Assembly (NCBI RefSeq): GCF_002846335.1
Contig: NZ_PJMQ01000001.1
Location: 4,464,001 to 4,528,000 of the forward strand
Length of the DNA: 64,000 nucleotides
Direction: 5' to 3'
Origin: Janthinobacterium sp. 61
GTDB taxonomy: Bacteria > Pseudomonadota > Gammaproteobacteria > Burkholderiales > Burkholderiaceae_D
This document shows positions 1,925 through 18,894 of this stretch, piece by piece. The position numbers and the translations under genes are program-made. The notes below the pieces were generated by a model that did not search any database, was not told where the DNA came from, and saw nothing but the letters and a program-made list of their open reading frames with translations. Every line of letters starts with the position of its first letter. Positions within the stretch are counted from its first letter, which is position 1.

Positions 1925-2045
1925 GCTGTTTTTACAGGTTTTTTGGGATTGCAAGACGGTTTGTACGGTGGAAACAGCTATTTTGACGACTTTTCCACCG
2001 TTCGCGTTTGTCTCTGTGTTTTAAATAAAGATGTATACATAAAAA

Positions 2046-2240
2046 TAGTAGTGATAGTAAACGGCCATTTTTTTGTGGATAAGTCGGTATACCATCGAAA
2101 AATCATCGACTTAGCGTACAAAAAAGTAGGCGCACAAGCATTGTATCCAGCGAGGACTTGTTTGGGATAAAAATTGAGCTGTGGACAAAGATCGACTTTT
2201 CCCACATCTCATCCTGTGAATATGCAGACACTTATCCACA
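2046..2240 (+). repeat. Origin module 1 (DnaA-trios to closing DnaA box)
   Basis: Trio run TAGTAGTGATAGTAA, spacer ACGGCCATTTTTT, box TGTGGATAA, a middle block ending TTGTATCCAGCGAGGA, and a closing TTATCCACA. It is 195 bp from trio start to closing box and is preceded by an AT-rich stretch (AAATAAAGATGTATACATAA). Confidence 0.75.
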
Positions 2241-2510
2241 GTAGCAAGCAGAAATCACGGATTTTCTTGCTGTAGTGGCATGGTTAACGTGCTGCGCATG
2301 CATTGTTCTTGGTTTGCCAATCAAACTTGCGCAACCATGAATGTTGTTCTTTCGCGGATGCTGGCATCCAGGTGATTCCTGGCAGACGGTTTGGCAGTGG
2401 GTCTTGATGTCGCCGTTGGCTTTTTTTTTGTCGCTTCATGCATGCTTTTTTGGAAATATCTCCGGAGTTCCTCTTTTTTTATCGGTTTACAATAGATCTA
2501 TATATAAAAA

Positions 2511-2704
2511 TAGTAGTAATAGTAAACGCGGTTTTTTCTGTGCATAACTCGTTTTTTTTCAACAGGATCAACCGTTTACGCGCAAAATAAAGCGTGCATA
2601 ATCGCTGTATCACGCGAGGAGCAAAATTGTATAAAATGCGGGCCTGCGCATAACTTCGTGTTTATTCACAAGCCATCCTGTGGATATCAAGTGACTTATC
2701 CACA
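2511..2704 (+). repeat. Origin module 2
   Basis: Trio run TAGTAGTAATAGTAA, spacer ACGCGGTTTTTTC, and a box with one mismatch (TGTGCATAA). The middle block is CTGTATCACGCGAGGA and the closing box TTATCCACA. It is 194 bp long, starts 465 bp after module 1, and is the most degenerate at its first box. Confidence 0.72.
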
Positions 2705-2985
2705 ATCGTTGTAAATTTCCCCTTTTTCGACATCGAATCGCCTGCTGGCCCTGTGCCTGATCAGGTTTGTTGACGTTTGCATTTTGCACAACGGTTTGGC
2801 GGTGCTGTGTGCGTGATGCCGACCGTGCCGGTTTTCGTCGCTCAGTTGTTGGCTGGATTTTTTTTTTGACAGCATGAGCAGCTTGTCGGCTTTTTTTTGA
2901 CGAGAGGCTTGCCGATGTTGTTGACGGCGAACGGCAAGCAAAGTGCGCGTTGTCGGGTTTACCTTAATAAGTTCGTATACAAGAA

Positions 2986-3181
2986 TAGTAATAGTAGTTA
3001 ACGGTGACATCTTCTGTGGATAAGTCCTAATTTGTCCTTGTAAACAATCGCTTGGCGTACGGATAAGCGCTGAGTAAGCGTTGTATCTGCCTGGGATGGT
3101 TTCTGGACAAAAAAACGTCGCTGAAAAATTTTTTCGTTTACGCACATATCGTCCCTGTGGATATCCATACGGTTATCCACA
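2986..3181 (+). repeat. Origin module 3
   Basis: Trio run TAGTAATAGTAGTTA, a 14-bp spacer, a perfect TGTGGATAA, a middle block GTTGTATCTGCCTGGGA, and a closing TTATCCACA. It is 196 bp long and starts 475 bp after module 2. The inter-module spacers also share CGGTTTGGC(A/G)GTG followed by T-runs. Confidence 0.74.
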
Positions 3182-3380
3182 GCTTGCAGCCCCTGTTTTA
3201 CCCTGCTTTTTAGCGTGCCGCGACGCTTGCCACGATTAATGTCGCCCTGGTCCGGCACTGGTGGTAATCTCAATGTGGCTCAACAGCAATGCATGCGTGA
3301 AGAAAGACAGACTCTGGTAACGGGACGCGGTGGGGAGACACACCGCGCGACAGCTTGATGGCATACCGAAAGGAGCTTCA

Positions 3381-5006
3381 TTGGAATCAGCAGGCGAATA
3401 CGACTACATCATCGTGGGCGGCGGCACGGCAGGTTGCGTGCTGGCCAACCGGCTCACACGCGACAAGGATGCCAACGTTTTGCTCGTGGAAGCGGGCGGC
3501 AAGGACGATTACGTGTGGATCCACATCCCCGTCGGCTATCTGCATTGCATCGGCAATCCCCGCACGGACTGGCTGTATTCCACGCAGGCAGACGCGGGAT
3601 TGGGCGGGCGCAGCTTGATGTATCCGCGCGGCAAAGTGCTGGGAGGCAGTTCTTCCATCAACGGCATGATCTATATGCGGGGCCAGGCCGGCGATTACGA
3701 CCACTGGGCCGACCTGACGGACGATGTGTCCTGGCGCTGGGACAAAGTCTTGCCTTTATTTAAGCAAAGCGAGGATTACTACGGCGGCGCCTCGGAAAAC
3801 CATGGTGTTGGCGGGGAATGGCGCGTGGAAAAACAGCGGCTGTCCTGGGATATTTTGAATGCTTTCCGCGATGCGGCGCAGCAGGTCGGCATTCCGAAAA
3901 CCAGCGATTTCAATGGAGGCGACAATAGCGGCAGCGCGTATTTCGACGTCAATCAACGCCGCGGCATACGCTGGAATACCTCGAAAGCGTTTTTGAAACC
4001 GGCCGCGCGGCTTCCGAATCTGACCATCATGACGGGTTGCCACGTGGAACGTCTGCTGCTGGAAACGACGGAAACGGGACCGCGCTGCACGGGAATCGTG
4101 TTTACGGGCGGCGGTACACAGTGGCAGGCGACGGCCAAACGGGAAACCTTGCTGACGGCGGGGGCCATCGGTTCTCCCCAATTGCTGCAATTGTCCGGCA
4201 TCGGCCCGGCCGCCTTGCTGCAGCAGCATGGCATCGTTCCCGTGCTCGATGCCGCCGGCGTGGGCGGCAATTTGCAGGATCATTTGCAGCTGCGCATGGT
4301 CTTTAAAGTACAGGGCGTCAAGACCTTGAACGTGATGGCCAGCAATATCGTCGGCAAGATGCAGATAGGCTTGCAATACGCGCTGTTCCAGAGCGGGCCC
4401 ATGTCAATGGCGCCGTCGCAGCTGGGCGCGTTTGCCAAGTCCGACCCGCAGCAAGCCACGCCGAACCTGCAATACCATGTGCAACCGCTGTCGCTGGACA
4501 AATTCGGCGAGCCGCTGCACGCGTTTCCCGCATTTACGGCCAGCGTCTGCAACCTGCGCCCCACCTCGCGTGGCCACGTGCACATCGCGTCGGCCAACAG
4601 CTATGCGGCGCCTGACATCGTGCCCAATTACCTCAGTACGCAGCAGGACCGCGCCGTCGCAGCTGACGCCCTGCGCCTGACGCGGGCCATCGCCGCCGCG
4701 CCGGCCCTGAAAAAATTTGCGCCGCAGGAATACAAGCCTGGCGTGCAATTCCAGAGCGAGGAAGAACTGGCGCAGGCGGCCAGTCAGATTGGCACCACCA
4801 TTTTTCACCCCGTGGGTACCTGCCGCATGGGCCTGGCCAGCGACGCATCGAGCGTCGTCGACAGCCAGCTGCGCGTGCTCGGCGTGGCCGGCTTGCGCGT
4901 CGTCGATGCCTCCATCATGCCCTACATTACTTCTGGTAATACGAACTCGCCCACCGTGATGATCGCGGAAAAAGCGGCGCAAATGATACATGCGGCCTGG
5001 AAATGA
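3381..5006 (+). CDS. GMC-family flavin oxidoreductase (choline/alcohol dehydrogenase type)
   Basis: A 541-residue FAD enzyme of the glucose-methanol-choline family, which oxidises alcohols to aldehydes. The dinucleotide fold YDYIIVGGGTAGC is at the N-terminus. GGRSLMYPRGKVLGGSSSIN is the first GMC signature and GAIGSPQLLQLSGIGP the second. FHPVGTCRMG carries the catalytic His (residue 476), and SGNTNSPTVM the partner Asn and FAD contact. I chose the TTG at 3381 because AAAGGAG ends five bases before it and the protein then begins at the FAD fold; an upstream GTG at 3330 lacks such a site. The substrate is unknown. The next genes form an organic-acid/amino-acid-type transporter, so a role in alcohol or hydroxy-acid use is possible but unproven. 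Confidence 0.87.
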   Translation: MESAGEYDYIIVGGGTAGCVLANRLTRDKDANVLLVEAGGKDDYVWIHIPVGYLHCIGNPRTDWLYSTQADAGLGGRSLMYPRGKVLGGSSSINGMIYMRGQAGDYDHWADLTDDVSWRWDKVLPLFKQSEDYYGGASENHGVGGEWRVEKQRLSWDILNAFRDAAQQVGIPKTSDFNGGDNSGSAYFDVNQRRGIRWNTSKAFLKPAARLPNLTIMTGCHVERLLLETTETGPRCTGIVFTGGGTQWQATAKRETLLTAGAIGSPQLLQLSGIGPAALLQQHGIVPVLDAAGVGGNLQDHLQLRMVFKVQGVKTLNVMASNIVGKMQIGLQYALFQSGPMSMAPSQLGAFAKSDPQQATPNLQYHVQPLSLDKFGEPLHAFPAFTASVCNLRPTSRGHVHIASANSYAAPDIVPNYLSTQQDRAVAADALRLTRAIAAAPALKKFAPQEYKPGVQFQSEEELAQAASQIGTTIFHPVGTCRMGLASDASSVVDSQLRVLGVAGLRVVDASIMPYITSGNTNSPTVMIAEKAAQMIHAAWK

Positions 5007-12174: not shown

Positions 12175-13332
12175 TTACAGCGCGGCCGCATAGATGGCGC
12201 GGGCATCAAGACGCGTGACGGGCCGAGGATTGTTGCCTATCAAGCGCGTCTGTAGCATGGCCTCGTCGGCCAGGCGATCCAGGTCGCTGGCCGCGATGCC
12301 CACCTCGCGCAGGGTGCGCGCGATCCCTGTCGCCAGGGCGATGTCATGCATGGCGTCGATCAGGGCCACGGCGCGCGCTTCCTCGCTGCCCGTGATGCCG
12401 GGTTGCACGACGGCCGCCAGTTGCGCATACAGGGGCGCCGCGTGGGACAGATTGAAGCGCAGCACGTGTGGCAACACCAGCGCATTCGACAGGCCATGTG
12501 GCACGTGGAACATGCCGCCAATGGGATAAGCGAGCGCGTGCACGGCCGCCACGGGGGCATTGGCAAACGCCTGGCCGGCCAGCATGGCGCCGAGCAACAT
12601 GGCCTCGCGCGCCGGCAAGTTGCTGCCATCGCGGCAGGCCGTGAGCAGATTGCCGGACAGCAGTGACAGCGCCTGCATGGCCAGCATATCGGACAATGGA
12701 TTTTTCAGCAGGCGGCTGGTGTACGCTTCGATGGCGTGCACCATGGCATCGATGCCGGTGGCGGCTGTCACTGCGGGTGGCAAGCCCAGGGTCAGGCTGG
12801 CGTCGAGGATGGCCAGGTCTGCATACAGTTGCGGCGCGACCACGCCCATCTTGCTGGTGGCCCCCGTGGTGACGATGGCGATCTGCGTCACTTCCGAGCC
12901 TGTGCCGGCCGTGGTCGGCAATTGCACCAGGGGCAGGCGCTGGCCGTTGACATTGCCGATGCCATACAGTTGCGCCAGATCCTGGTGGCCGGGAGCCAGT
13001 ACAGCCACCAGTTTGGCCACATCCAGCGAGCTGCCGCCACCGAGACCGATAATCAGTTCCACGTGAAACATCCGGGCCTGGGCGACGCCGGCCAGCACGA
13101 TCGCTTCGGGCGGATCGGCTTGCACCTCGGAAAAGACACGCACGTCGATACCCGCCGTTCGCAAGCTATGCAGCGGAGCATCGGCGAGTCCCGTGCGCAG
13201 AAAACCTGCATCGGTGACGAGCAGGGCACGGCGCACTGTGGGGAATTGATGGGCAATATGGGCGCCCAGTTGGGCGGCGGCGCCCGCTTCAATGATCAGA
13301 TGCGGCACGGTGCGGAACTGGAAGGCGGGCAT
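12175..13332 (-). CDS. Iron-containing alcohol dehydrogenase
   Basis: A 385-residue group-III (Fe-type) alcohol dehydrogenase. The NAD(P) site is GLGGGSSLDVAKLVA, preceded by VTDAGFLRTGL. PTTAGTGSEVTQIAIV is the first family signature. Metal ligands lie in TGIDAMVHAIEAYTS, AAVHALAYPIGGMFHVPHG and the following histidines. I chose ATG 13332 with CAGGAGT upstream; a start at 13350 adds six residues without a site. The substrate is unknown; butanol, lactaldehyde or hydroxybutyrate-type alcohols are all possible. A parS (13055-13070) lies inside the gene. Confidence 0.86.
   Translation of the reverse strand: MPAFQFRTVPHLIIEAGAAAQLGAHIAHQFPTVRRALLVTDAGFLRTGLADAPLHSLRTAGIDVRVFSEVQADPPEAIVLAGVAQARMFHVELIIGLGGGSSLDVAKLVAVLAPGHQDLAQLYGIGNVNGQRLPLVQLPTTAGTGSEVTQIAIVTTGATSKMGVVAPQLYADLAILDASLTLGLPPAVTAATGIDAMVHAIEAYTSRLLKNPLSDMLAMQALSLLSGNLLTACRDGSNLPAREAMLLGAMLAGQAFANAPVAAVHALAYPIGGMFHVPHGLSNALVLPHVLRFNLSHAAPLYAQLAAVVQPGITGSEEARAVALIDAMHDIALATGIARTLREVGIAASDLDRLADEAMLQTRLIGNNPRPVTRLDARAIYAAAL
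13055..13070. promoter_or_regulatory. parS: parS site 2 (inside the Fe-alcohol dehydrogenase gene)
   Basis: AGTTCCACGTGAAACA matches the parS consensus with two substitutions. Confidence 0.8.
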
Positions 13333-13390
13333 GCAGACTCCTGACAACAAGGACAGAAGCCAAGCTTACTCCGCTTTTCCGCCCTGCGCA

Positions 13391-13406
13391 TGTTTCACGT
13401 GGAACC
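13391..13406. promoter_or_regulatory. parS: parS site 3 (intergenic)
   Basis: TGTTTCACGTGGAACC lies between the alcohol dehydrogenase start and the nuoA stop. It has two differences from the consensus. Confidence 0.82.
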
Positions 13407-13418
13407 AGACGCCGCGGG

Positions 13419-13778
13419 CTATTCCCATTCCAGCGCGCCGCGTTTCCATTCATACGCCAGGCCGATGGCCAGTACGCTCAAAAAACCCATGACAGCCCAG
13501 AAGCCGGGCAAGCCGAGTTCGTTCACGTTGGCCGCCCACGGCATCAGGAAGATCACCTCGATATCGAACAGGATGAAGAGGATGGCGACCAGGTAGAAGC
13601 GGATGTCGAACTTCATGCGCGCATCGCCGAACGCTTCGAAGCCGCATTCGTACGGCGACAGCTTGTGCGGATCGGGCTTGTGCGGACCCAGCACGCGTCC
13701 CAGCAGCATGGGCACGATGCCGACCAGGATGCCTATCAGAATGAACAGGAGGACGGGAAAATAGTTTTCGAGGAGCAT
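13419..13778 (-). CDS. nuoA: NADH-quinone oxidoreductase subunit A, outside a nuo operon
   Basis: A 119-residue membrane protein of respiratory complex I, which helps form the quinone and proton channel region. It has three predicted helices. [20 protein letters not shown] is the hallmark loop with the conserved Cys near the quinone site. [15 protein letters not shown] is the second helix and [11 protein letters not shown] the typical end. GAGAGGAAC precedes the ATG. Normally nuoA heads a 14-gene operon. Here it stands alone, 11 bp after sugE on the same strand and so probably in one transcript with it. Either a second nuoA copy exists elsewhere or this is a specialised paralogue. Confidence 0.88.
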
Positions 13779-13789
13779 GGGGGTTCCTC

Positions 13790-14110
13790 TCAGTGGCTGG
13801 AAGACAGCTTCATCAGCACGATGCCGCACACGATGAGGACGGCGGCGCACACGCGCATGGTGCTGATTTGCTCGCCCAGAAACACGATACCGACGATGAA
13901 GGCGCCGACGGCGCCGATGCCGGTCCAGATGGTGTAAGCCGTGCCCAAGGGGAGGGTGCGCATTGCAATCGACAGCAAGCCGAAGCTGGCGATCATCATG
14001 ACCACGGTAATCACGGAGGGAGTCAGTTTGGTGAAACTCTCGGAGAGTTTCATCGAGTATGCCCACACAACTTCAAGCATGCCGGCAATGAGTAAAAGTA
14101 TCCAGGCCAT
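13790..14110 (-). CDS. sugE: Small multidrug resistance family guanidinium exporter (Gdx/SugE)
   Basis: A 106-residue, four-helix SMR protein. [20 protein letters not shown] carries the essential membrane Glu. [16 protein letters not shown] is the SugE/Gdx-type motif, and GIVLMKLSS ends the protein. SugE/Gdx members export guanidinium as antiparallel dimers. That assignment is supported independently by a guanidine-II riboswitch directly upstream. AAGGAG precedes the ATG, and nuoA follows after 11 bp. Confidence 0.93.
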
Positions 14111-14127
14111 GGCGGCTCCTTATACAG

Positions 14128-14175
14128 AGCGGGCCGTCCCGGTGTGTGCCCATGATGGGGGAGGCCGTCCTCCTG
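14128..14175 (-). promoter_or_regulatory. Guanidine-II riboswitch (mini-ykkC) of sugE-nuoA
   Basis: On the minus strand there are two hairpins. The first is GGAGG-ACGG-CCTCC (14160-14173) and the second CGGG-ACGG-CCCG (14130-14141). Each has the ACGR tetraloop that defines this class. The second ends 8 nt before the AAGGAG ribosome site (14116-14121). Guanidine binding stabilises the loop-loop contact and is known to turn on downstream translation in this class. Confidence 0.88.
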
Positions 14176-14278
14176 GATGATCGTCACTATGGCCACTGGC
14201 GTGACTACGGTTGCGGACGATGCGGCAATTGTAGCAAACATTGCAGGACACTGCAGCCCCATCCTGGAGCTTGTTGAG

Positions 14279-14294
14279 TGTTCCACGTGAAACA
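14279..14294. promoter_or_regulatory. parS: parS site 4 (upstream of mnmG)
   Basis: TGTTCCACGTGAAACA differs from the consensus at a single base. It lies in the intergenic region between sugE and mnmG, 2.9 kb from parA. Confidence 0.88.
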
Positions 14295-14381: not shown

Positions 14382-14427
14382 CGGAGCTCTCTTCCCGCAT
14401 TTTTACTTGCACTGTTACCTATTTATC

Positions 14428-16365
14428 ATGTTATTTCCTACAGAATTCGACGTCATCGTTGTCGGTGGTGGTCACGCCGGTACCGAGGCGGCCCTCGCTT
14501 CCGCCCGCATGGGGCAGAAGACGCTATTGCTCACGCATAATATTGAGACATTGGGCCAGATGTCGTGCAATCCCTCCATCGGTGGCATCGGCAAGGGCCA
14601 CCTGGTCAAGGAGGTCGATGCCATGGGCGGCGCGATGGCGATTGCCACCGACGAATCCGGCATCCAGTTCCGCATCCTGAACTCGTCGAAAGGCCCTGCA
14701 GTACGCGCCACGCGCGCTCAGGCTGATCGGCTTCTTTACAAAGCCGCCATCCGCACGCGCCTGGAAAATCAGCCTAATTTATGGCTGTTCCAGCAAGCCG
14801 TCGATGATTTGATCGTCGAAGGCGACCGGGTCGTCGGCGCCGTGACGCAGATCGGCTTGAAGTTTCTGGCCCGCGCCGTGGTGCTCACGGCCGGTACCTT
14901 CCTCGATGGCAAGATCCACGTGGGCTTGAATAACTACTCGGCCGGCCGCGCCGGCGACCCGCCTGCCATTTCGCTTTCGGCTCGGTTAAAAGAGCTGAAA
15001 CTGCCGCAGGGTCGTTTGAAAACGGGCACGCCGCCGCGTATCGATGGCCGCACAATCGACTTTTCCGTCATGCAGGAACAGCCGGGCGACCTCGATCCCG
15101 TACCCGTCTTTTCCGTCATGGGCAACACGGCCATGCACCCGCGCCAGGTGCCGTGCTGGGTCACGCATACGAATAGCCAGACGCACGACATCATCCGTGC
15201 CGGCCTGGACCGCAGCCCCATGTACACGGGCGTCATCGAGGGCGTGGGTCCCCGGTATTGCCCTTCCATCGAAGACAAGATCCACCGTTTCTCGGGCAAG
15301 GAATCGCACCAGATCTTCCTCGAGCCGGAAGGTTTGACGACGCATGAGTTCTATCCGAATGGCATCTCCACGAGCCTGCCGTTCGACGTACAGATCGCCC
15401 TGGTGCAATCGATGAAGGGCATGGAAAACGCCCACATCCTGCGTCCCGGCTATGCCATCGAATACGATTACTTCGACCCGCGCGGCTTGAAGGCCTCGCT
15501 GGAAACGAAGGCCGTGGCTGGCCTGTTCTTTGCCGGCCAGATCAACGGCACCACCGGCTACGAAGAAGCGGCCGCGCAAGGCATGCTGGCGGGCCTGAAT
15601 GCGGCCTTGCTGACGCAGGACAAGGAAGCCTGGGTACCGGGCCGCTCCGAGGCGTATCTGGGCGTGCTGGTCGACGATCTGATCACCCAGGGCGTGCAGG
15701 AACCGTACCGCATGTTCACCAGCCGCGCGGAGTACCGCCTGAGCCTGCGCGAAGACAATGCCGACATGCGCCTGACGGAAATCGGCCGTACTCTGGGCTG
15801 CGTGGGCGACGCCCAATGGCAAGCCTTCGAAACGAAGCGCGAAGCGGTGGCGCTGGAACTGCAGCGCCTGCGTTCCACCTGGGTCAATCCGCGCATCCTG
15901 GCGGCCGCCGAATCGGAACGTATCGTCGGCCAGGCCATCGAGCGCGAATACTCGCTGGCGGACCTGCTGTGCCGCCCGAACGTGGCCTACGATACCCTGA
16001 TGAGCATGACGGGCATGGAAGGTCAGGCCCTGGCCGGCCCCGGCGTGGAAGACCCCGCCGTGCGCGAACAGGTGGAAATCCAGCTCAAATACGCGGGCTA
16101 CATCGAGCGCCAGAGCAAGGAAATCGAGCGACACGAACACTATGAAAACCTGGCCCTGCCGGCCGGTTTCAACTACCTCGATATCGGCGCGCTGTCGGTC
16201 GAAGTGCGGCAAAAACTCGACAAGCAGCGCCCTGAAACCCTGGGCCAGGCATCGCGTATTTCCGGCGTGACGCCGGCGGCGATTTCGCTGCTGCTGGTGC
16301 ATTTGAAAAAGCGCGGCTTCGGTGCCGCGCAGACCACCACTTTAAAGGATGAGGTTGTTGAATGA
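14428..16365 (+). CDS. mnmG: tRNA uridine 5-carboxymethylaminomethyl modification enzyme MnmG
   Basis: A 645-residue FAD enzyme that, with MnmE, modifies the wobble uridine of several tRNAs. [20 protein letters not shown] is the FAD fold. [20 protein letters not shown] is the MnmG signature with its catalytic Cys, and [20 protein letters not shown] the second flavin region. The helical C-terminal domain ends near [15 protein letters not shown] 14428 gives the family's usual start; a TTG at 14407 is also open. Its stop overlaps the rsmG start (ATGA). The mnmG-rsmG-parA-parB order is common near origins. Confidence 0.95.
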
Positions 16366-17006
16366 AGCAGTTTGACCGGGCCGCACTGGCCCCCATTTTG
16401 AATGAAGGCATCGCCGCGCTGGAGCTGGACCTGAGCGCGGATCAGACGGAAAAACTGCTCGATTACCTGGCCTTGCTGGCCAAATGGAATAGCGTGTACA
16501 ACCTGACGTCGGTGCGCGATCCGCTGCAGATGCTGACCTTGCACGTACTCGATTCGCTGGCGGCCGTGCCGGCGTTCGCTCATGCAAAAAATGTACTCGA
16601 CGTAGGCGCCGGCGGCGGCTTGCCGGGCATGGTACTGGCCATCGCGCGGCCCGATATCCAAGTGTCGATGATCGACACCGTGCATAAAAAGACGGCATTT
16701 TTGACGCAGGTGAAGGCCGAACTGGGCTTGAGCAACGTCACCGTGTACACGAAGCGTGTGGAGCAGCTGGAAGTGCAGCAGAAATTCGACGTGATTACCT
16801 CGCGCGCCTTTGCTGACCTGTCCGACTTCGTCAACTGGTCGAACCATGTGCTGGCCGAGGGCGGGCAATTCATCGCCTTGAAAGGGGTGGCACCGCCAGA
16901 CGAGCGCGAGCGACTGCCGGCAGACTGGCAAGTGACACAATTGCGGCCTATCCAGGTGCCAGGGCTAAATGCAGAGCGTCATCTGGTCTTTATAGCAAGA
17001 ATTTAA
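16362..17006 (+). CDS. rsmG: 16S rRNA (guanine-N7)-methyltransferase RsmG
   Basis: A 214-residue SAM-dependent enzyme methylating G527 of 16S r[22 protein letters not shown] is the SAM-binding motif, and [14 protein letters not shown] plus the TLHVLDSLA stretch are family markers. [10 protein letters not shown] and GGQFIALKG follow. Its ATG overlaps the mnmG stop by four bases, so the two are translationally coupled. Confidence 0.94.
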
Positions 17007-17025
17007 AGGCCGCTGAATTAAATGG

Positions 17026-17115
17026 TATAAATCATATAAACAGTTTATACGGTATAAATAATATAAACCATATAAACGATTTATATCGTATAAATGAAAT
17101 AAATAGTATAAATCG
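17026..17115. repeat. Ten tandem 9-bp TATAAA-type units upstream of parA
   Basis: The 90 bp divide exactly into ten 9-mers: TATAAATCA, TATAAACAG, TTTATACGG, TATAAATAA, TATAAACCA, TATAAACGA, TTTATATCG, TATAAATGA, AATAAATAG, TATAAATCG. Units 3 and 7 are inverted (TTTATA). The array lies 20 bp after rsmG and 59 bp before the parA ATG. It likely contains the parAB promoter or operator, or a flexible AT-rich element. Confidence 0.8.
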
Positions 17116-17174
17116 TTTCGGCGGGATGCCGGGGCGCACGATGAAGTTTGCATCTCTTTACAACTAGAAGATAC

Positions 17175-17945
17175 ATGGCCAAAATTTTTTGTGTAGCAAA
17201 TCAAAAGGGTGGTGTTGGTAAAACCACAACAAGCGTCAACCTCTCCGCCGGTCTGGCCAAGTTGAACCAGCGCGTGCTGCTGGTCGACCTCGACCCGCAG
17301 GGCAATGCGACCATGGGCGCCGGCATCAACAAGGCCGGCTTGAAGGCGTCCACCTATGAAGTCATGTTGGGCGAGTCCGATGTCAAGACGGCACGCCAGC
17401 GTTCGGAAGCGGGGCGCTTCGATGTCTTGCCGTCGAACCGCGAACTGGCAGGTGCCGAAGTCGAGATGGTCGAACTGGACAACCGCGAACGCCGCCTGAA
17501 GGATGCGCTGGCCGAAGTCGACAGCGAATACGACTTCATCCTCGTTGATTGCCCGCCGGCATTATCAATGCTGACCCTGAACGGCCTGTGCGCCGCACAT
17601 GGCGTGATCATCCCGATGCAGTGCGAGTACTACGCGCTGGAAGGCTTGTCCGACCTGGTCAACACCATCAAGAAGGTGCATGCCAACCTGAACCCGGATC
17701 TGAAGATCATCGGTCTCTTGCGCGTGATGTTCGATCCACGCATGACATTATCGCAACAAGTGTCGGCCCAGCTGGAACAGCACTTTGGCGACAAGGTCTT
17801 CAATACCATCATCCCGCGCAATGTCCGCCTGGCCGAAGCGCCATCGTACGGCCTGCCCGGAGTGACCTTCGACCCGAGCTCGAAAGGTGCCCAGGCGTAT
17901 ATCGCCTTCGGCGCCGAGATGGTCGAACGTATCAAACATATGTAA
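17175..17945 (+). CDS. parA: Chromosome partitioning ATPase ParA
   Basis: A 256-residue ParA/Soj-type Walker ATPase that moves ParB-parS complexes during chromosome segregation. The protein opens AKIFCVANQKGGVGKTTT, the deviant Walker A with its signature lysine. FILVDCPPALSMLTLNGL is Walker B, and EYYALEGLSDLVNTIKKV follows. ATG 17175 follows AGAAG and places the start directly at the fold; the TTG at 17148 is less likely. It forms an operon with parB. Confidence 0.95.
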   Translation: MAKIFCVANQKGGVGKTTTSVNLSAGLAKLNQRVLLVDLDPQGNATMGAGINKAGLKASTYEVMLGESDVKTARQRSEAGRFDVLPSNRELAGAEVEMVELDNRERRLKDALAEVDSEYDFILVDCPPALSMLTLNGLCAAHGVIIPMQCEYYALEGLSDLVNTIKKVHANLNPDLKIIGLLRVMFDPRMTLSQQVSAQLEQHFGDKVFNTIIPRNVRLAEAPSYGLPGVTFDPSSKGAQAYIAFGAEMVERIKHM

Positions 17946-18009
17946 ACAAAGGGCGAGCGACTCCCATGAATAATGTGAGCGCTTACTCCGAAAACACGAT
18001 TAGGACAGC

Positions 18010-18894
18010 ATGGCTACGAAAAAATTAAAAGGACTGGGTCGCGGACTCGACGCCCTCCTGGGTGGCGGCGGCGACTTCGCCAGTCCGGACACGCATCAAC
18101 CCTCCAGCTTGCCCGTATCACAAATGCAAGCTGGCAAGTACCAGCCGCGCACGCGCATGGACGAGGGGGCCCTGAACGAACTGGCCGCCTCGATCAAGGC
18201 GCAAGGACTGATGCAGCCCATCCTGGTGCGTCCGATCGGGCAAGACACCCTGAGCGGACTTGTTAAATATGAAATAATTGCCGGTGAGCGCCGTTTCCGC
18301 GCCTCGCAGCTGGCCGGCCTGACGGAAGTACCGGTGCTGGTGCGCGATGTGGACGACCTGGCCGCCGCCGCGATGGCGCTGATCGAGAACATCCAGCGCG
18401 AAGACCTGAACCCGCTGGAAGAAGCGCAGGGCATCCACCGCCTGATCGCCGACTTCAATTTTACGCATGAGCAAGCGGCCACTGCGCTGGGACGCTCGCG
18501 CAGCGCGGTGTCGAACCTGTTGCGCCTGATGAACCTGGCAAGTCCCGTGCAGACCATGCTGATGGCTGGCGATATCGACATGGGCCATGCGCGTGCCTTG
18601 CTGGCGGTCGATGCGGCCAGCCAGATCAACCTGGCCAACCAGGTCGTGGCCAAGCGCCTGTCGGTACGCGAAACGGAAAAGCTGGTGACGCGCACGGCCG
18701 AAGAAGCGGCCAACCCCGTCGAACCGCGGCAAAAGGAAAAGTCCGGCGACATCGCGCGCCTGGAAGAAGAGTTGTCCGATGCGCTGGCCACGCCCGTGGT
18801 GTTCAAGATGGGCAACAAAGGCCGTGGCCAATTAGTGATCGATTTTGCCGATCTTGACGTGCTCGATGGTTTGTTGACCCGCTTGCGTGGTTAA
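18010..18894 (+). CDS. parB: Chromosome partitioning protein ParB
   Basis: A 294-residue CTPase/clamp protein that binds parS. The N-terminal peptide KKLKGLGRGLDALLGG is the ParA-contact region. YEIIAGERRFRASQLAGL is the CTP-binding box, and FTHEQAATALGRSRSAVSNL the parS-reading helix-turn-helix. The C-terminal dimer domain ends LDVLDGLLTRLRG. Four matching parS sites lie 3.7-8.6 kb upstream. The ATG has TAGGA before it. Confidence 0.95.
   Translation: MATKKLKGLGRGLDALLGGGGDFASPDTHQPSSLPVSQMQAGKYQPRTRMDEGALNELAASIKAQGLMQPILVRPIGQDTLSGLVKYEIIAGERRFRASQLAGLTEVPVLVRDVDDLAAAAMALIENIQREDLNPLEEAQGIHRLIADFNFTHEQAATALGRSRSAVSNLLRLMNLASPVQTMLMAGDIDMGHARALLAVDAASQINLANQVVAKRLSVRETEKLVTRTAEEAANPVEPRQKEKSGDIARLEEELSDALATPVVFKMGNKGRGQLVIDFADLDVLDGLLTRLRG

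Follow-up and report, generated by a model that had tools for sequence, protein, structure and literature searches.

Three tandem origin-like units at the probable oriC of Janthinobacterium sp. 61, distant from dnaA

That a bacterial chromosome has one replication origin is almost a textbook rule, and models of initiation control assume a single start site. Bipartite or putative double origins are described for Bacillus subtilis, Helicobacter pylori, Ralstonia pickettii and others (PMC4403523, excerpt). In Escherichia coli, the IHF site IBS1 sits with DnaA box R1 in the left half of oriC (PMC10380432, excerpt). For the basal unwinding system (BUS), the rule is that three or more NAN triplets lie no further than 16 bp from a DnaA box, with a spacer peak at 10–13 (PMC8287927, excerpt). 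The distal box of B. subtilis can work from several distances, in a helically phased manner, while the proximal boxes are orientation-dependent (PMC6669920, excerpt). Here we describe a locus of Janthinobacterium sp. 61, whose chromosome is a single contig of 6,003,843 bases (NZ_PJMQ01000001.1). The window, meaning the whole 64,000-nucleotide stretch analysed (genome positions 4,464,001–4,528,000; window positions are used below unless stated), contains three co-oriented units of ~213 bp within positions 2029–3184. This region is very probably the oriC of the chromosome and, in the reading that we favour with moderate confidence from sequence comparison, it would be made of three complete, largely redundant origin units.

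Structure of the three modules

The modules occupy about 1.4 kb of intergenic DNA with a G+C content of 44%, as against ~59% in the flanking 2-kb bins. Each has the same internal order: a TATA-rich stretch, a TAG/TAA run, a spacer, box A, an IHF-like site, weaker boxes and box C (TTATCCACA). A profile of 215 positions, built from 59 family modules with the three window modules included, matched all three over its full length (116–132 bits). IHF-like sites were scored against WATCAANNNNTTR, which we take to be the IHF consensus. The parts are as follows.

2029..2243, + strand: module 1, complete origin-like unit (profile match 2032–2243, 116.2 bits)
2046..2063, + strand: triplet run (DnaA-trio-like) with its ACG, module 1 (sequence, pattern match)
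2074..2082, - strand: box A (R1-like), module 1, TTATCCACA on the - strand
2101..2113, + strand: IHF-like site, module 1, AATCATCGACTTA, 1 mismatch to WATCAANNNNTTR
2215..2223, - strand: weaker box beside box C, module 1, ATATTCACA
2232..2240, + strand: box C (R4-like), module 1, 158 bp from box A
2494..2707, + strand: module 2 (profile match 2497–2707, 121.0 bits)
2511..2528, + strand: triplet run with its ACG, module 2 (sequence, pattern match)
2539..2547, - strand: box A, module 2, TTATGCACA on the - strand, also given as TGTGCATAA
2566..2578, + strand: IHF-like site, module 2, GATCAACCGTTTA, 1 mismatch to WATCAANNNNTTR
2679..2687, - strand: weaker box, module 2, ATATCCACA
2696..2704, + strand: box C (R4-like), module 2, 157 bp from box A
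2966..3184, + strand: module 3 (profile match 2972–3184, 131.7 bits)
2986..3003, + strand: triplet run with its ACG, module 3, TAG TAA TAG TAG TTA ACG (sequence, pattern match)
3015..3023, - strand: box A, module 3, TTATCCACA on the - strand
3042..3054, + strand: IHF-like site, module 3, AAACAATCGCTTG, 1 mismatch to WATCAANNNNTTR
3156..3164, - strand: weaker box, module 3, ATATCCACA
3173..3181, + strand: box C (R4-like), module 3, 158 bp from box A

An earlier note on this DNA had described three tandem modules, each with a triplet run, a spacer, a box and a closing box, and these are indeed present at 2029–3184. Its spacers of 13–14 bp starting with ACG were read from the sequence as 13, 13 and 14 bp between the last triplet and box A of modules 1, 2 and 3, respectively. 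The box type that it gave holds for modules 1 and 3; box A of module 2 is TGTGCATAA, not TGTGGATAA. The ~195-bp repeat is real, but the unit is longer and richer than supposed, as the full-length profile matches indicate. Successive A boxes are 465 and 476 bp apart. Across the 60 bp to the left of box A, where the AT-rich unwinding element of an oriC would be expected, A+T is 67–75%, and 15 DnaA boxes with one mismatch at most lie in 1955–3330.

These signals were set against chance. Exact TTATNCACA occurs eight times in the window (0.70 expected; 0 of 100 shuffles reach 8), and seven of the eight copies fall inside the module region. The triplet pattern, allowing one mismatch, has three matches in the 6.0-Mb genome, every one at the modules. 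With up to two mismatches it again has three genome-wide, as does a reversed control pattern, and with up to three mismatches it has 12 against 39 for the control. Because the reversed control matches as often or more at two to three mismatches, the triplet run by itself is weak evidence; the triplet run combined with box A gave no control matches in 294 family genomes. An RNA explanation of the region was also considered and dropped, as Rfam at gathering thresholds returned a single tRNA over the window.

The internal geometry of a unit is nearly constant. Among the 126 modules detected by pattern in the retrieved loci, exact TTATCCACA is found at 156–158 bp from box A in 116, and with one mismatch at most in 122; the remaining four (L071, L072, L073 and L087) have 2–3 mismatches at the box C position. 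An IHF-like site with no more than one mismatch starts 27 bp from box A in 51 of 59 aligned modules (exact in 12), and at none of the other offsets from 10 to 149 do eight or more of the 59 carry such a site. The genome encodes IHF-alpha (TIGR00987 match of 156.5 bits, cut-off 120.25, in a search aimed at IHF-alpha). By sequence match, an IHF site lies just inside the R1-like box, as in an IHF-assisted oriC of the E. coli type, whereas three units are present where that type has one per chromosome. A datA-like titration array has boxes without an unwinding element; here all three modules keep the triplet run. Because of the fixed distance between boxes A and C, the IHF offset of 27, the profile match to E. 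coli oriC (see below) and the IHF-alpha gene, each module has the appearance of an entire, compact origin core of the E. coli type whose unwinding element is built of triplets. As for the BUS layout proposed in the earlier note, modules 1 and 2 fit the strict rule with a 13-bp spacer and module 3 has 17 bp if its TTA is not counted; the whole is closer to the E. coli-type core of R1, IHF site and R4 than to the bare Bacillus system.

The intergenic region is bordered by two open reading frames (ORFs).

1148-1954, - strand: 5'-methylthioadenosine/S-adenosylhomocysteine nucleosidase ORF, left border
3330-5006, + strand: choline-dehydrogenase-like GMC oxidoreductase ORF, right border

Position of the probable origin on the chromosome

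The dnaA gene lies at genome position 4,130,389, ~335 kb to the left of the modules; adjacency to dnaA, a frequent but not obligatory trait of oriC, is absent here. GC skew was sampled in 64 stretches (1.264 Mb in total), and its minimum had been set beforehand, in the earlier note, as a test of the origin claim. The interpolated minimum is at 4.456 Mb, next to the modules at 4.466 Mb (dnaA is at 4.130 Mb), and an unconstrained two-change fit places the borders at 4.46 and 1.42 Mb. A single dif-like sequence, with 2 mismatches to the 21-base pattern, is found at 1,417,830 and coincides with the skew maximum. From this site the two arms measure 2.96 and 3.05 Mb to the modules, compared with 3.29 and 2.71 Mb to dnaA. 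When the modules and the dif-like site are taken as borders, skew is positive in 30 of 32 right-arm stretches and negative in 29 of 32 left-arm stretches; with dnaA as the border instead, it is positive in 31 of 39 and negative in 23 of 25. An octamer resembling the FtsK-orienting polar sequence (KOPS) is likewise distributed 94:17 on the right arm and 18:72 on the left arm between the modules and the dif-like site. The skew minimum of a chromosomal oriC, opposite dif and the skew maximum, is thus found at this locus. Because the minimum lies beside the modules and the maximum at a dif-like site almost opposite, the region is very probably the oriC of the chromosome. The minimum, the fit and the dif-like site thus give good in silico support to the earlier suggestion that oriC lies away from dnaA. 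Its mention of parS sites, parAB and mnmG nearby was also borne out: parS-like sites, mnmG, rsmG, parA and parB are located 10–16 kb to the right of the modules.

1876, no strand: cumulative GC-skew minimum in 124 kb of contiguous sequence, beside module 1
13055, 13391 and 14279 (span 13055..14294), no strand: three parS-like sites, 1–2 mismatches
14407..18894, + strand: mnmG, rsmG, parA-like and parB-like genes, origin-proximal markers (gene calls)

A fourth module or a remnant at dnaA was sought with the profile and rejected: there was no match in the two dnaA stretches (L001 and L020), and the three matches genome-wide are the window modules.

A separate head-to-tail array of DnaA-box-like sequences was observed ~14 kb to the left of module 1, at L019:7385-8505 (genome 4,451,385-4,452,505). 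Its boxes are nearly all on one strand, often 11–12 or ~23 bp apart, without a triplet run, and it gave weak partial profile matches only (9.7–12.1 bits). The matching stretch of four out of four other genus genomes holds a dense cluster (7–12 boxes with one mismatch at most per 600 bp); in other genera, seven boxes were seen in L340 and just 2–3 in four further stretches. By its sequence, this array is a candidate DnaA titration array.

Conservation and distribution of the modules

The profile was used in a census of 294 family genomes, each at least 90% complete. Three matches were found in 80 genomes, two in 162, one in 44 and none in eight, so that 242 of 294 have two or more; outside the genus, one of the three matches is in some genomes a partial antisense one lying within a module (G173, G347 and G324). 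All 33 genus genomes have three modules, and the median is two or more in 22 of 40 genera. In an order-wide search 178 of 299 genomes were matched, mostly weakly outside the family. Of the 167 genomes matched there, 119 have a single match and 48 have two or more (rows counted by hand). The single module that the earlier note took as the norm is accordingly a fair description outside the family but not within it.

A scan of named contigs found at least 119 stretches with modules. Among the matches listed (119 stretches of up to 8 kb, some of which clip modules or share a contig), 25 have three full modules, 77 have two and 17 have one, and neighbouring modules form 121 pairs in the same direction and six in opposite directions. 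The titles of the best 80 of the 119 name Janthinobacterium, Herbaspirillum, Undibacterium, Duganella, Rugamonas, Massilia, Glaciimonas, Collimonas and other genera, whose placement in the Oxalobacteraceae is our own assignment, or metagenome-assembled genomes (MAGs) named to family, order or class. Co-oriented modules are spaced 272–3571 bp apart; helical phasing between them was considered and rejected (resultant 0.05–0.12). Inverted pairs, roughly 0.2–2.8 kb apart, were seen in some genera (L137, L158, L202, L211, L214 and L216; G193, G223, G233 and G243).

Comparison with related genomes, which the earlier note had proposed, shows each module to be conserved above the spacers: mean column identity in 21 genus genomes is 0.924, 0.935 and 0.903 for modules 1–3, and 0.786 and 0.774 for the two inter-module spacers. 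Box A and box C are each perfect in 61 of the 63 modules of these loci; the changed copies of box A are in module 2 of Janthinobacterium sp. 61 and module 1 of L055. Similarity and descent were examined in 28 three-module loci (84 modules, 72 of them different; some loci are probably one genome in two collections). Modules within one locus are on average 61–65% alike, whereas modules at the same position in different loci are 79–84% alike. The module tree sorts by position, with three label changes against a minimum of two and a shuffled mean of 40.2, and the Janthinobacterium sp. 61 modules group with those from named Janthinobacterium. The exceptions are L157 (Massilia psychrophila) and L043, which are mutually identical and in which modules 2 and 3 are sisters. 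Because the tree follows position and similarity is lower within than between loci, the triplication is older than the genus: the three modules are old positional orthologues that have escaped homogenisation. Modules 2 and 3 alone were observed in L066 and in L114 (6193-7147), a Janthinobacterium MAG; the two records are probably one draft genome, and neither has a trace of module 1.

The distance to dnaA was determined in 40 of the 44 single-contig census genomes besides G000 (G318, G338, G356 and G362 were omitted). Seven of the eight genus genomes have a distance of ~343–363 kb, and G016, the remaining one, has ~567 kb; for other genera the extremes are ~6 kb (G294) and ~0.79 Mb (G313). Five records (G004, G030, G036, G327 and G340) have dnaA within their first 2 kb and the modules at 287–363 kb. 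In G340 and G327, several near-identical partial matches to the DnaA domain (PF00308), in frames of ~265–275 aa, are spread over the genomes; these may be IstB-type transposon ATPases. Twenty single-contig genomes of other Burkholderiales families were hand-picked after most match places were known, which biases the rate: 14 of them have a weaker match directly downstream of dnaA (nine with one match, five with two), five (G527, G538, G502, G415 and G381) have a match that is not beside dnaA, and for G061 the place is not listed. We infer that the ancestral state was likely one unit beside dnaA, later moved and multiplied in this family.

Proposed working, alternatives and known systems

In the three-unit reading, assembly in each unit would begin with DnaA on the R1-like box A and the R4-like box C, with a bend made between them by IHF at its putative site, 27 bp from box A. 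DnaA would next polymerise leftward into a filament on the triplet strand, which would open the AT-rich element for the loading of DnaB. The unit that finishes its complex first would start the round, and the forks would traverse and reset the remaining units, so that three units would normally amount to one initiation. For any given level of DnaA, several units may also raise and buffer the probability of a start. The parts of this scheme that we infer are the binding of DnaA and IHF, the opening of the strands, redundancy and a single firing per round; sequence, layout, conservation, copy number in relatives and the position at the skew minimum opposite the dif-like site were observed. The fixed geometry within units and the free spacing between them argue for units that are self-contained, and the behaviour of distal and proximal boxes in B. 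subtilis would, by analogy, fit the fixed distance between boxes A and C. The loss of module 1 in one lineage and the altered boxes in single strains are compatible with redundancy.

Several observations weigh against this reading. A second skew dip near 4,442 kb is nearly as deep as the minimum in the 124 kb of contiguous sequence, and in the interval from dnaA to the modules the KOPS-like motif is evenly split (9:8). Five genomes from other genera, sampled in four 20-kb stretches each, gave noisy skew with no clear pattern. In G313, sampled in 24 stretches, the skew change was fitted at 4.72 Mb, with modules at 4.39 Mb and dnaA at 3.60 Mb; the fit is 0.33 Mb off the modules and 1.1 Mb off dnaA, which is only roughly consistent. 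Since skew in other genera is indecisive, the origin claim rests on the Janthinobacterium sp. 61 genome and on conservation. Module 3 departs from the strict BUS rule, as its TTA is not NAN and the spacer is then 17 bp. Finally, the conservation of all three modules could instead mean that they are jointly required.

The best surviving alternative, which we regard as unlikely, is that one module is the working origin and the other two are adjacent DnaA reservoirs or regulators, acting in titration or timing. It would agree with the skew minimum to the left of module 1, with the several boxes in every module and with the accumulation of DnaA boxes near oriC in E. coli (PMC12371093, excerpt). 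However, a reservoir needs boxes only, and all three modules keep the triplet run, the IHF-like site and the 156–158 bp geometry; moreover, a box-only array is already present 14 kb away, and one lineage lacks module 1.

Less probable again is one cooperative machine, in which every module has to be assembled or each fork is served by the opening of a different module. The constancy of three modules throughout the genus census would suit such a machine, as would the oppositely oriented pair that some genera have instead. Against it, the spacing between co-oriented modules varies widely and without helical phase, unlike the fixed spacing within them, and the copy number is one to three across the family and two in one genus lineage.

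That the true origin is at dnaA, with the module cluster a regulatory or titration region, seems very improbable: two exact TTATNCACA boxes ~0.5 kb before the DnaA domain and the balanced KOPS-like motif speak for it, but skew is negative in six of the seven stretches between dnaA and the modules, the skew fit and dif-like site indicate the modules, and the profile has no match in the two dnaA stretches. The least credible view is that the modules are neutral relics of a tandem duplication, one copy functional and two decaying, which the modest likeness of copies within a genome would allow but which is opposed by their about equal conservation, above that of the spacers, and by positional orthology kept across the genus.

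We therefore return to the three-unit reading and, more tentatively, to its extension to the family: the Oxalobacteraceae origin may be a multi-unit device, moved away from dnaA and built of two to three oriC units, each competent on its own and arranged either in tandem or as an inverted pair. Selection would then have kept the number of units for a long time, as a trait that sets the ease of initiation. Among the literature matches listed, there was no Janthinobacterium or Oxalobacteraceae origin and no natural tandem oriC units of this kind, and tandem complete origin units in this family are not described in the excerpts of PMC8287927, PMC6669920, PMC12371093, PMC10225481, PMC10380432 and PMC4403523. 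Most of the family seems to keep two to three complete units in close proximity, and both their number and their orientation vary naturally. Such variants would make it possible to test directly, without artificial duplications, whether it is origins or DnaA that initiation control counts, and what role each part of oriC has; the two-module lineage (L066/L114) is a natural test case. Tandem start sites also raise the question of how the cell still initiates once per cycle. In practical terms, the first base of a genome record set to start at dnaA can lie hundreds of kb from the real origin, which could mislead growth-rate estimates from coverage slopes.

Among known systems, the modules resemble E. 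coli oriC in the orientations of their R1-like and R4-like boxes and in the profile, whose match to that origin runs from R1 on (20.4 bits, E 3e-5). In E. coli K-12 an ATCAA-type GATCAACAACCTG (2 mismatches to WATCAANNNNTTR) begins at an offset of 27 bp from R1, as in the modules; we take it to be IBS1, the main IHF site. The E. coli origin differs in its R1–R4 distance of 180 bp (156–158 bp between boxes A and C here), in its single copy and in having mnmG adjoining, a gene that is 11 kb off in Janthinobacterium sp. 61; the module unwinding element, for its part, is a triplet run. With the BUS of B. subtilis and others, the modules share 3'-GAT-5' steps beside a DnaA box and, in modules 1 and 2, the 13-bp spacer (PMC8287927, excerpt); they differ in forming three full copies with an IHF-like site and a fixed closing box, and module 3 goes beyond the 16-bp limit unless TTA is counted. 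The oriC beside dnaA in other Burkholderiales families is matched by the module profile, but more weakly (14 of the 20 picked genomes). In bipartite or double origins, as here, more than one DnaA-box cluster is part of the origin or predicted as an origin; those consist of sub-regions split by dnaA or of predictions that lie far apart, whereas the modules of Janthinobacterium sp. 61 are three complete units within 1.2 kb (PMC4403523, excerpt).
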